DNA from: Nitrospirota bacterium
Lineage (GTDB): Bacteria > Nitrospirota > Thermodesulfovibrionia > Thermodesulfovibrionales > UBA1546
DNA: 64,000 nt
Assembly (NCBI GenBank): GCA_016195565.1
Contig: JACPZK010000031.1
Span: forward strand, 124,001 to 188,000
Direction of reading: 5' to 3'
The notes beneath the pieces were generated by a model. The model did no database searches. It was not told where the DNA came from and saw only the letters and a program-made list of their open reading frames with translations. A program made the translations under genes and the position numbers. Positions 35,286-51,603 of the stretch are shown in pieces; position 1 is the stretch's first letter, and each line of letters opens with the position of its first letter.

Positions 35286-35371
35286 GAGTTAAAAGTTAGA
35301 AATTAAAAGTTAAAAGTCAAAAGTCTTTAATTCGTTAACTCCTAACTTTTAACTCTCAACTCTTAACTTTT
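35286..35371. repeat. AT-rich inverted repeat (AACTTTTAACTC family)
   Basis: A 14-bp perfect stem, GAGTTAAAAGTTAG with its complement, spans a 42-base loop. Its outer edge runs over the stop codon of the amidotransferase gene, supplying its last codons and stop. Similar AACTCTTAACTTTTAAC strings recur at 51528-51603 and inside the gene at 46612. On the minus strand it could terminate the amidotransferase transcript. Confidence 0.75.
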
Positions 35372-42884: not shown

Positions 42885-44007
42885 TACCTGTCTCCGATTT
42901 TAGATAAGAAACAATGGACTCAAATACCTCATCAATACTTATATTTTCCATGCAGGTTTGGTGTTTACATTTTTTGCTTGCACACGGCTCGCATGTCCTT
43001 TCTTTTTGTATGACAATATGCTTTTCCATATCATAATAAGGCCCTGATTTTTTTGGGTCTGCTACTGCAAACAGCGCCACAACCGGTGTCCCGACTGCAA
43101 CTGCAATATGCATGACCCCTGTGTCTCCGGTCACTAAAGCCTTGAATCTTTTAAGCAGTGCCGGAATGTATTTTAGAGGAATCTTCCCTGCTGACACAAT
43201 CGCTTTTTCTCCTATTTCATCTGCAATATTTTTACAATAATTGTATTCCTGCGGGGAACCAGTAATTACTATTTTTAATTCAGAATACGAATTAATAAGC
43301 CTTTTGCCCAATTCGGCAAATCTGTCAGGAAACCACATCCTGCTGAGAGTTGATGCGCCTGCCTGAAAGCCTATGATTGAATCTGTATCTCTGATTCCGC
43401 TATTTTCTAAAAACTCATTGACAGCAGATTCTCCATCTTTTTCTATAGGTAGAACCATTCTCTTATCTGAAATCCTGCAGCCAGCAAGCTCCGCCACTTT
43501 AAGCCGCTGCTCTACACCATGGGTTAAGTCTTCCCATAGCAAAGTCTGATTTATGTTGGACAGCAGGAATCTGTATTCACTCGTACTTGGCACTTTGACG
43601 ATGAATCTTGCCCCTGAAAGATATGCCATTGGAGTTGCCTGAGGTTCGTTGCCGTGAAATATCAATGCGAGGTCAAATTTATGTCTGCGGGATTTCATAA
43701 TGGTCCTGAAAATTTTTTTATATCCGCCATGATAAGGAATTATCTCATCTATGTATGGGTTATTTTCAAAAAGCCCCATGTTTTTAATATTAAAATGAGC
43801 AACTATCCTTGCCTGAGGGTATCTCTCGCGGACAGCTCTTATTGCCGGCGTTGAAAGTAATGTATCTCCTATTGCCGTTGATGAGACAACTAAAATGTTT
43901 TTAACCGCTTCGGGATCAAAATATTTTAAATCCGTTTGCCTTCCATCAAAGAATTTTACGATCTTTAGCAGCAAAAACAGCAGGACATCAATGGGATTGT
44001 TTCTCAT
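42871..44007 (-). CDS. GT9 heptosyltransferase-family protein
   Basis: 378 residues. The GT9 start NILVVSSTAIGDTLLSTPAI is preceded by about 34 residues with a hydrophobic stretch. Donor motifs are IGFQAGASTLSRMWFPDRF and VTGDTGVMHIAVAVGTPVV. The C-terminus holds a cysteine cluster (CEPCASKKCKHQTC), similar to that of WaaF-like proteins. Overlaps the deacetylase by 4 bases and the methyltransferase by 14. Confidence 0.9.
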   Translation of the reverse strand: MRNNPIDVLLFLLLKIVKFFDGRQTDLKYFDPEAVKNILVVSSTAIGDTLLSTPAIRAVRERYPQARIVAHFNIKNMGLFENNPYIDEIIPYHGGYKKIFRTIMKSRRHKFDLALIFHGNEPQATPMAYLSGARFIVKVPSTSEYRFLLSNINQTLLWEDLTHGVEQRLKVAELAGCRISDKRMVLPIEKDGESAVNEFLENSGIRDTDSIIGFQAGASTLSRMWFPDRFAELGKRLINSYSELKIVITGSPQEYNYCKNIADEIGEKAIVSAGKIPLKYIPALLKRFKALVTGDTGVMHIAVAVGTPVVALFAVADPKKSGPYYDMEKHIVIQKERTCEPCASKKCKHQTCMENISIDEVFESIVSYLKSETGNARY

Positions 44008-44813
44008 TTTTTCTTTATCTTGAGGTATAACTTTGAAAGGATTGTGTTTGTATATACTACCATTCTTTTCTTAAACCAGGCAACGCTGTCCTTAACTATT
44101 ATCCTGTTTATTGCAAACGGGTCAGAGCCTGCTTCAACGACCCCGTGATTTGTGGTAAATAGGGCTTTATATCCGGTTTTTTTTGCAACATTTACGGCAA
44201 GGCCATTATATTTGCCGTAAGGCCAGCAGAAGTAGGGGCCTGGACTGCCAAGCTGTTTTTCAATAATCTCCCGTGATTCTTTCAGTTCTTCCATGAGTTC
44301 TTTTTCAGACAGGCTGTTGCATTTAGCATGGCTTTTTGTATGCGAATAAAACTCGATAAGGCCGCTGTTTGACATTTCCTTAATAAGTTCCCAGTTTATC
44401 ACAACCTTATGCGCTTCTCCTTTTTCTATAAGAATTTTTGATTCATTATGAGTGGGTATTAACAGTTTTGAATTTTGAATTTTGAATTTTGAATTTTTTA
44501 AAGACGCATTTTCCACTCTGTTTGTAATTAAGAAAACAGTTGCGTTGATTTTGTATTTTTTGAGTATGGGAAAGGCATACATATAATTATCAAGCCAGCC
44601 GTCGTCAAAGGTGACAACTACAGCTTTCTGAGTTAAGGTCAGTTCTCCGTTTATGTAAGAAATGAGTTCGCCTATCTTTAATGTCCTATAGCCTGCTTTA
44701 TGCAAGTATTCCATTTGCCCTTCAAAGACCTTCGGAGTTATAGTGACCATATCCCCTTTATGGTGGTTGGTGTGATGGTACATTAAAACCGGAATCGGTC
44801 TCATTGAGGACAT
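44004..44813 (-). CDS. Polysaccharide deacetylase (NodB domain) with repeat-derived loop
   Basis: 269 residues. Carbohydrate esterase family 4 motifs are visible: VVTFDDGWLDNY with the catalytic and metal aspartates, the SHTKSH metal-binding histidine motif and FCWPYGKYN. It would deacetylate an N-acetyl sugar in a surface glycan; no signal peptide is clear. Residues 105-117 (KNSKFKIQNSKLL) are encoded by a tandem 7-base repeat and fall in a loop that should be variable, so the enzyme can still be active. Overlaps both neighbours. Confidence 0.87.
   Translation of the reverse strand: MSSMRPIPVLMYHHTNHHKGDMVTITPKVFEGQMEYLHKAGYRTLKIGELISYINGELTLTQKAVVVTFDDGWLDNYMYAFPILKKYKINATVFLITNRVENASLKNSKFKIQNSKLLIPTHNESKILIEKGEAHKVVINWELIKEMSNSGLIEFYSHTKSHAKCNSLSEKELMEELKESREIIEKQLGSPGPYFCWPYGKYNGLAVNVAKKTGYKALFTTNHGVVEAGSDPFAINRIIVKDSVAWFKKRMVVYTNTILSKLYLKIKKK
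44466..44493. repeat. Four tandem copies of TTTTGAA inside the deacetylase gene
   Basis: Four perfect, adjacent 7-base units on the plus strand, flanked by T-rich sequence. They are translated in the deacetylase as the KFKIQNSK segment. Because 7 is not a multiple of 3, gain or loss of one unit would shift the frame. Confidence 0.9.
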
Positions 44814-46611: not shown

Positions 46612-47901
46612 TTATATATCCAGTTTACCTTTTAAAATATTTATAACCTCTTCCGTTTTTATCTCCTCAAGGCACCTGCTGGTTTTGCTACCGCCACATC
46701 CATCTTTACCGCATGGAATGCACTTCCAGTCTTGTTGAATTACTGTATGAATTCCAAATGTCTGTATTCCATTCCTTTTTGGATAGGGAGTCTCTTCTGT
46801 TTGACCCACGGGGACAGTCCCGATTCTACGACTTCGCTTTGCTCCGTCCGTAAATCTGGGACAGTCCCCTCGAGGAGTTTTAAACTCTAAACTCTTAGCG
46901 CTTAACTTTGAGCTTTTATTATCCCACGGCCCCCAGTGAAAGGCGCCGCTTGGCCCGAATAGGGCAACGACAGGCGTGCCGGCTGCTGCGGCAATATGCA
47001 TAGGAGCGGAGTCTACGCCAAAGAATAAATCCGACACTTCTGATATTGCAGCAAGCTGTTTAATGTTTGTTTTGCCGCAAAGGTCAACTACTCCTCCACA
47101 GTTCAGTCGCGGGGACAGTCCCGATTCTACGGCTTCGCCCGTAAATCTGGGACAGTCCCCTGAAGTTCTGACCATGGATAATATCTTTTTCGCCTTTTCC
47201 ATTTCCCGTTTGTCAGGAGCTGATGTAACGATTACGGTTATGCCTTTTCCGGTCATCCAGTTTATAACCGCTGCCATGTATTCATCCTTCCAGCATTTGA
47301 AAAGCCATCGCGATGTCGGATGGACATGAACAACAGGGGTATTTTTATCTATCCTGTTCTTTTCCATGATACGGTTAGCAAACATTCTTGCGTCTTCAGG
47401 GATAGATATATCCACGGAGAGATTGTCTGTTTTAATGCCGAACTGGTACACGACATCAAGGTTTTGCAGTACTGTGTGCTGGTTATCGTTTCTTACGGCA
47501 AGGTGGGTATAAAAATGTCTTTTCCCCCAAAAACCAGCTCTGATGTTATGCGCAAACCTGTATGAAGCGCCTGAGACAAAGGATATTATCGCAGCCCGGT
47601 CACCGCCTGTGAGGTCAACTGCCATGTCAAAGCCTTTCCCGCGTATCATTCTTAAGAATGATATTTCTTTTGTACATTTTTGTGGAAAGTTCATTTTCTT
47701 GATGCTTCTGTCAAAGGCTATTATTTCGTTAATAAAGGGACTTGATTCTAAGGCCTCTTCCGTGCCTGAATTCACGAGGGCGGCAATATGAGCCGCCGGA
47801 AAATTTTCTCTTAATGCCCTGAATACGGGAACACTCAGAAGGACATCGCCGATATGGCGGAGTTTTATGACAAGGATTTTTTTTATGCCGCTGAAATTCA
47901 T
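46612..47901 (-). CDS. GT9 heptosyltransferase with two in-frame repeat-derived insertions
   Basis: 429 residues, about 80 longer than typical. It starts KILVIKLRHIGDVLLSVPVF and keeps SAPMHIAAAAGTPVVALFGPSG and the cysteine-rich end (CIPC, DGCGGSKTSRC). Two segments do not belong to the family: residues 247-268 lie between KILSMV and VVDLCGKT, and residues 329-382 lie between WGPWDN and the HTVIQQDW strand. Each contains GDCPRFT, encoded by GGGGACAGTCCC-type palindromic repeats in the same reading frame. The frame stays open, so the gene may be functional. It is the first gene of the 11-gene operon. Confidence 0.88.
   Translation of the reverse strand: MNFSGIKKILVIKLRHIGDVLLSVPVFRALRENFPAAHIAALVNSGTEEALESSPFINEIIAFDRSIKKMNFPQKCTKEISFLRMIRGKGFDMAVDLTGGDRAAIISFVSGASYRFAHNIRAGFWGKRHFYTHLAVRNDNQHTVLQNLDVVYQFGIKTDNLSVDISIPEDARMFANRIMEKNRIDKNTPVVHVHPTSRWLFKCWKDEYMAAVINWMTGKGITVIVTSAPDKREMEKAKKILSMVRTSGDCPRFTGEAVESGLSPRLNCGGVVDLCGKTNIKQLAAISEVSDLFFGVDSAPMHIAAAAGTPVVALFGPSGAFHWGPWDNKSSKLSAKSLEFKTPRGDCPRFTDGAKRSRRIGTVPVGQTEETPYPKRNGIQTFGIHTVIQQDWKCIPCGKDGCGGSKTSRCLEEIKTEEVINILKGKLDI
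46810..46870. repeat. Palindromic repeat insert, copy A, in the GT9 gene
   Basis: 61 bases bounded by GGGGACAGTCCC and GGGACAGTCCCC, inverted with one mismatch. The interior shares CGATTCTACG and CCGTAAATCT with copy B, but has about 11 extra bases. It is read on the minus strand as GDCPRFTDGAKRSRRIGTVP in the heptosyltransferase. The adjoining 46874-46917 is an AT-rich AACTCTTAAC-type repeat, also within the coding frame. Confidence 0.9.
47111..47160. repeat. Palindromic repeat insert, copy B, in the GT9 gene
   Basis: 50 bases with the same ends and core as copy A, lying about 240 bases away in the same gene and orientation. It is read on the minus strand as GDCPRFTGEAVESGLSP. Both copies use the same frame for the GDCPRFT stretch. 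GGGACTGTCCC-type ends are typical of REP elements moved by RAYT transposases; no such gene is present here. Confidence 0.9.
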
Positions 47902-51538: not shown

Positions 51539-51603
51539 AGTGAAAAGTTTAAAAAAATGATAAATTCTGAAACTCTTAACTCTCAACTCTTAACTTTTAA
51601 CTT
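51528..51603. repeat. AT-rich repeat spanning the IDH stop and CNNM start region
   Basis: Left part AGTTGAAAGTTTAAAG, right part AACTCTTAACTCTCAACTC then TTAACTTTTAAC, imperfectly complementary. The left part encodes the last residues and stop of the dehydrogenase; the right part ends seven bases before the next ATG, leaving no visible ribosome binding site there. Same family as 35286-35371. Confidence 0.75.

Follow-up and report, generated by a model that had tools for sequence, protein, structure and literature searches.

In-frame palindromic repeat dimers in a Nitrospirota GT9-family gene and other enzyme genes: a probable mobile element kept as tolerated loops

In Rickettsia, the genus from which in-frame palindromic inserts are best known, their presence is easily put down to genome decay. 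The Rickettsia palindromic elements (RPEs), of which RPE-1 is longer than the element described here, lie in frame in unrelated protein genes, sometimes two per gene, and the function of the host protein is apparently kept. A second type of repeat, the REPINs, which Bertels and Rainey are said to have described in 2011, reportedly consists of two inverted REP units round a spacer that fold as one long hairpin and are inferred to be mobilised in trans. Most REPINs lie outside genes, and they are linked to a RAYT gene. Di Nocera et al. (2013) described GTAG and CGTC REPs inside ORFs, with dimers of 20–30 aa and double insertions, the GTAG-tagged dimers occurring for example in O. terrae and Thioalkalivibrio and the CGTC tag belonging to RPE-4 and RPE-6 (PMC3733652). 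The terminal inverted repeats of Y1 transposase (TIRYT) genes carry a GGGGWSAS motif, can be self-complementary and occur as dimers (PMC3733652). The kind of event reported here is already known from the Rickettsia RPEs and from the GTAG-REP dimers inside ORFs (PMC3733652); new are the palindrome family and its clade, the largely intragenic distribution, and the loop hotspots that hold several kinds of repeat.

The window, a stretch of 64,000 nucleotides from a Nitrospirota genome, contains an intact ORF of 429 aa on the minus strand (46612–47901) that encodes a GT9-family, heptosyltransferase-like protein. Both the PF01075 domain (5e-33) and the GT-B fold (best PDB match 3tov) identify it as a GT9 glycosyltransferase. 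Two copies of one palindrome lie in frame in this ORF. Element 1 (46810–46869, minus strand) is a 60 bp REP/TIR dimer encoding residues 345–364, GDCPRFTDGAKRSRRIGTVP, at loop site 2; motif search placed its outer palindromes GGGGACAGTCCC and GGGACAGTCCCC at 46810–46821 and 46858–46869, respectively. Element 2 (47111–47160, minus strand) is a 50 bp version with a short spacer that encodes residues 248–264, GDCPRFTGEAVESGLSP, at loop site 1 and is bounded by the same two palindromes at 47111–47122 and 47149–47160. Both copies have one orientation, and GDCPRFT is the peptide common to their minus-strand readings. Coordinates, ORF and translation all agree with the sequence-only reading, which had described two in-frame palindromes in the same orientation that each give GDCPRFT, and this observation is confirmed. 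A degenerate heptamer-type repeat, recognised in the sequence (46870–46914, minus strand; residues 330–344, SSKLSAKSLEFKTPR), adjoins element 1 in the same loop; the sequence-only reading had overlooked it, as well as the unrelated repeats that occupy these loops in relatives (see below). With at most one mismatch, the motif had six matches in the window, all within the two elements, against 0.10 expected, and none of 100 shuffles reached six. Folding gave a single long imperfect hairpin for each element (z −4.2 to −5.5). The two copies are unequal in length, and as the 50 bp of element 2 are no multiple of three, flanking bases must have been brought along or gained to keep the frame.

Outside the inserts, the GT9 gene shows purifying selection, with dN/dS of about 0.26 against G004, 0.21 against G001 and 0.13 against G011 (overall range about 0.1–0.26). 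These ratios are in line with the sequence-only reading, which likened the inserts to elements that do not destroy function. AlphaFold returned a GT9 fold (pTM 0.81; 3tov TM 0.76 on target), in which pLDDT falls below 50 only at residues 247–268 and 330–375, that is, at the two inserts and the neighbouring heptamer-type repeat; the alignment, built from proteins of the window and of the DNA searches, was shallow (8 sequences), and the low pLDDT at the inserts partly reflects its thin depth there. The inserts sit between conserved GT9 blocks, as had been claimed, and the predicted model is disordered at both. Insert-free homologues were found among the orthologues (G028, G057, G048) and among paralogues in the window. 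Altogether, the interpretation that the GT9 protein tolerates in-frame inserts is supported.

Alignment of the GT9 orthologues revealed three variable loops. At site 1, this palindrome is present in the host genome (G000) and in G001, G010, G046 and JACREW, a decayed or partial form in G004, G012, G015 and G037 (the last with a GDSPDL remnant), and heptamer repeats in G007 and G025. Site 2 holds the palindrome in G000, G004 and JACREW and heptamer or other repeats in G001, G007, G026, G015 and G046; G004 is likewise among the genomes with other repeats in this element 1 loop, which is short in G028, G057 and G016. Site 3 contains a form of the palindrome in G015 and other repeats in G007, G012 and G054. 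Short GT9 loops are found in G048 as well as in G028, G057 and G016. The unrelated loop fillers are heptamer arrays and other palindromes. In MqnC, the loop between NTEL and ATAVEYL holds the palindrome in six genomes and differing fillers in most others. The orientation of the palindrome at GT9 site 1 varies among species, so it was inserted there several times independently. As the same loops have been re-invaded in either orientation, also by unrelated repeats, the loops change while the fold is conserved.

It is conceivable that such inserts are useful, the loops altering enzyme activity, stability or partner binding and being selected for. Many relatives have long versions of these MqnC and GT9 loops, and some insertions are common to species with the same flank, as is GTGGGTCAAACAGAAGAGAC beside element 1 in G000 and JACREW. 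However, the filler differs by species and has no conserved motif, insert-free orthologues exist, and the inserted segments are disordered in the predicted model, so we consider selection for usefulness quite improbable. We believe that the inserts are probably neutral, selfish DNA and not useful domains. More tentatively, and with somewhat less than an even chance, certain surface loops of this lineage's housekeeping enzymes might be a standing landing zone, where palindromes and heptamer arrays enter, decay and swap on the timescale of species, so that the loops of MqnC, GT9 and other enzymes are constantly rewritten in length and sequence and the fold stays fixed.

Heptamer arrays were also observed elsewhere in the window. 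A polysaccharide deacetylase ORF of the same gene cluster as the GT9 gene (44004–44813, minus strand) contains another in-frame repeat, a (TTTTGAA)4.6 array at 44466–44497 that encodes KNSKFKIQNSKL. An inverted pair of AGTTAAA and TTAACTC arrays lies at 35287–35370 and an AACTCTT array at 51571–51602, both locations being outside any open frame of more than 150 codons.

The palindrome does recur beyond the window. Sequence searches of the host genome (Nitrospirota; 2.3 Mb in 33 contigs) count six copies in total, mostly within genes. Five of them are in open ORFs, namely GT9 (twice), mqnC (370 aa), a nifE-nifN fusion and a BPL_N-like ORF, and the sixth (L041, G000:C5:23248-23307) lies in what is left of a cas3-like gene, the frame being interrupted further downstream. 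At the site upstream of a cutA-like gene where G005 has a full element, G000 has a lone GGGGACAGTCCC, taken as a remnant. The fused nifE-nifN ORF (L043, G000:C22) has 892 codons and the Pfam domain Oxidored_nitro. Besides the palindrome, it carries at least two other repeat-like inserts (SSKLKVESSK; SLCEARSAEAISKDKGLLRFARNDRQ). Five genomes (L041, L070, L078, L126, L201) carry the element at roughly one position of a cas3-like N-terminal region, each time in a short or broken frame.

Of the 160 distinct copies collected from relatives and from a few further phyla, 84 sit in frame in an ORF, counted where at least 130 residues of the ORF lie outside the element. The rest are near a locus edge (16), between long same-strand ORFs (18, the upper limit for genes broken outright, short remnants aside), beside one long ORF (22), between opposite ORFs (7) or with none (13). 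The in-ORF share, about 58% of classifiable copies, is near the rough expectation for random insertion. Pfam domains were found in 39 of 40 sampled element-bearing ORFs, and the hosts so typed include MqnC, PurL, CobB, CbiC-CbiX, CbiD, CobT-CobS, NifEN, QueA, a PP-loop (TilS-like) enzyme, RsmE-like, LigD, PGM and P-type ATPases. Several genes have two copies (the window GT9, the L175 GT9, and the genes of L117, L170 and L186). Because the 60 bp form is open in four of six reading frames and spans 20 codons, many insertions into genes leave translation unstopped. The frames of the 60 bp copies in ORFs are used unequally, with 30 of the GTVPDLRTEQSEVVESGLSP type, 9 of GDCPRFT..., 6 of GDSPDST... 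and 1 of the hydrophobic GTVPILRLRFAPSVNLGQSP (chi-square 42.5, p about 3e-9), and the same skew is seen in the 42 copies that remain after collapsing those with common downstream context. This skew suggests filtering at the protein level, although a phase bias of the target sites may also produce it. In-frame copies outnumber possibly broken ones 84:18, exceeding the 2:1 expected for 60 bp insertions (p 3e-4) in a comparison that is rough, as the copies are not all 60 bp. The idea that only elements with a multiple of three bases survive in genes was rejected, since the length lists show no such enrichment in versus out of ORFs; frame keeping therefore comes partly from flanking indels.

An element that forms so strong a hairpin and has inserted so often in conserved genes could, like an intron or intein, be removed from the RNA or protein to yield an insert-free product. 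Against such removal, Rfam gave no family above the gathering score for the element, the frames stay open and their use is biased, neither of which splicing would require, and an intein of 20 aa is not known. We regard it as very unlikely. A single Rfam match to ar15 (E 0.66) was far below the gathering score and was dismissed as chance.

The element is built of two palindromic units, one at each end (GGGGACWGTCCC plus an inner GATTCTAC / GTAAATC arm) inverted round a variable spacer, with a usual length of 60 or 50 bp. GTAG stands 4 bases inside one palindrome (GTAGAATCGGGACTGTCCCC) and the other unit carries GTAA. One end, GGGGACAG (the first 8 bases of GGGGACAGTCCC), fits GGGGWSAS, and the other, GGGGACTG, is off by one base. 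Many of these genomes contain Y1_Tnp genes, and some Y1 genes are bounded by similarly designed TIRs (GGGACACTTCCC, GGGACAGCGCC). The palindrome itself was absent from the flanks of every Y1_Tnp gene examined, G001, G002 and G004 have the element and no Y1_Tnp match, and a search for an autonomous parent element using the left-end pattern with a -35 box found none. As no transposase gene with this repeat was found, mobilisation is only inferred. The 16 genomes searched contain no dimer family that belongs to the Y1 gene with GGGACACTTCCC ends. In four genomes, a Y1 transposase gene bounded by TIRs GGGACACTTCCCATAT was observed with conserved TIR design (L088 in G000:C22, L211, L219, L225), and dimers derived from it were not found.

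Full copies occur in 15 of 61 relatives and in 26 of 396 sampled Nitrospirota genomes, with a maximum of 33 per genome; the reversed control pattern was found in none of the 61 relatives and in one genome of the phylum set. A scan of GTDB representatives yielded 114 stretches, mostly from Nitrospirota and Deltaproteobacteria-type MAGs, with a minority from Poribacteria, Desantisbacteria and Omnitrophota and single records from Planctomycetota, Elusimicrobia and Psychracetigena. The 60-mer had no match in plasmid and phage collections and was absent from the relevant literature searched. The 60-mer recurs almost unchanged at loci and in genes that are unrelated, and in several phyla, which requires a copying mechanism. 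This weighs against an origin that involves no transposition, through slippage during replication, template switching or gene conversion between palindromes. For such an origin speak the heptamer arrays in the same loops, which look slippage-born, the variable spacer, the loss of the inner part seen between the terminal GGGACAGTCCC units, and the fact that no transposase gene examined bears the repeat. On balance we think it unlikely. All data are from draft genomes or MAGs, where assembly errors are possible, and an assembly artefact or mis-binning could be suspected; however, the elements recur at matching gene sites, with differing flanks, in assemblies that different projects made independently, which makes this explanation hardly credible.

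Two observations concern genes that bear the element in more than one lineage. An integrase-type gene has it at one site in several genomes (L054, L062, L145, L182), including one Proteobacteria-labelled MAG, and mobile genes may carry the element between phyla. A Nitrospirota MAG and Psychracetigena both have an N6_N4 DNA methylase gene with the same insertion (L074, L163), which suggests transfer of a gene already bearing the element.

We favor, as likely, that the inserts are a REPIN-like MITE, a non-autonomous REP/TIR dimer that a Y1 (IS200/IS605-like) transposase probably mobilises and that is kept where it encodes a tolerated, probably neutral surface loop; the architecture fits such a dimer. 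The element would most likely move as single-stranded hairpin DNA with the help of an enzyme supplied in trans, a Y1/HUH transposase of the IS200/IS605 type. Copies would persist where the encoded peptide can protrude as a disordered loop, and protein-level rejection might explain why hydrophobic or stop-bearing readings are seldom retained. A length-tolerant loop could then gather further repeats, such as heptamer arrays, other palindromes or second copies, and the copies would decay into short remnants.

Like the RPEs, the element has inserted in frame into protein genes that are unrelated to each other, at sites that tolerate it. The likeness to RPEs drawn by the sequence-only reading holds as an analogy of effect, while kinship is unsupported. 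The present element is in another phylum, and its ends are GGGGACWGTCCC as opposed to the CGTC tag of RPE-4/RPE-6 (PMC3733652). With the GTAG REP dimers it shares a length of 20–30 codons in ORFs and sometimes two copies per gene. GTAG stands in one arm and GTAA in the other, and the element further differs from them in the tag 4 bases from the palindrome, the low copy number and the lack of a RAYT beside the repeat (PMC3733652). Those dimers are mostly intergenic, whereas at least half of the copies here are inside ORFs (PMC3733652). Like REPINs, the element has inverted units round a spacer, one long hairpin and presumed mobilisation in trans; unlike them, it is often intragenic, and a partner RAYT flanked by the same repeat was not found among the Y1_Tnp genes examined. 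Of its two ends, one fits the GGGGWSAS motif of the TIR elements of TIRYT genes and the other deviates at one base (PMC3733652). Those TIRs can likewise be self-complementary and dimeric, and Y1 genes here have similar TIRs, although no TIRYT gene with exactly the present TIR was found.

The hosts here are environmental MAGs, often from groundwater and subsurface, of Nitrospirota and other phyla. Peptides such as GTVPDLR, GDCPRFT and GDSPDST should be read by annotators as element-derived. The inserts lie in vitamin, quinone, purine and nitrogen-fixation enzymes, and the relatives show the loops at every stage, short, filled, doubled and decayed. With these stages one can test how mobile DNA turns into new segments of proteins, which of the reading frames persist, and whether any loop gains a function.
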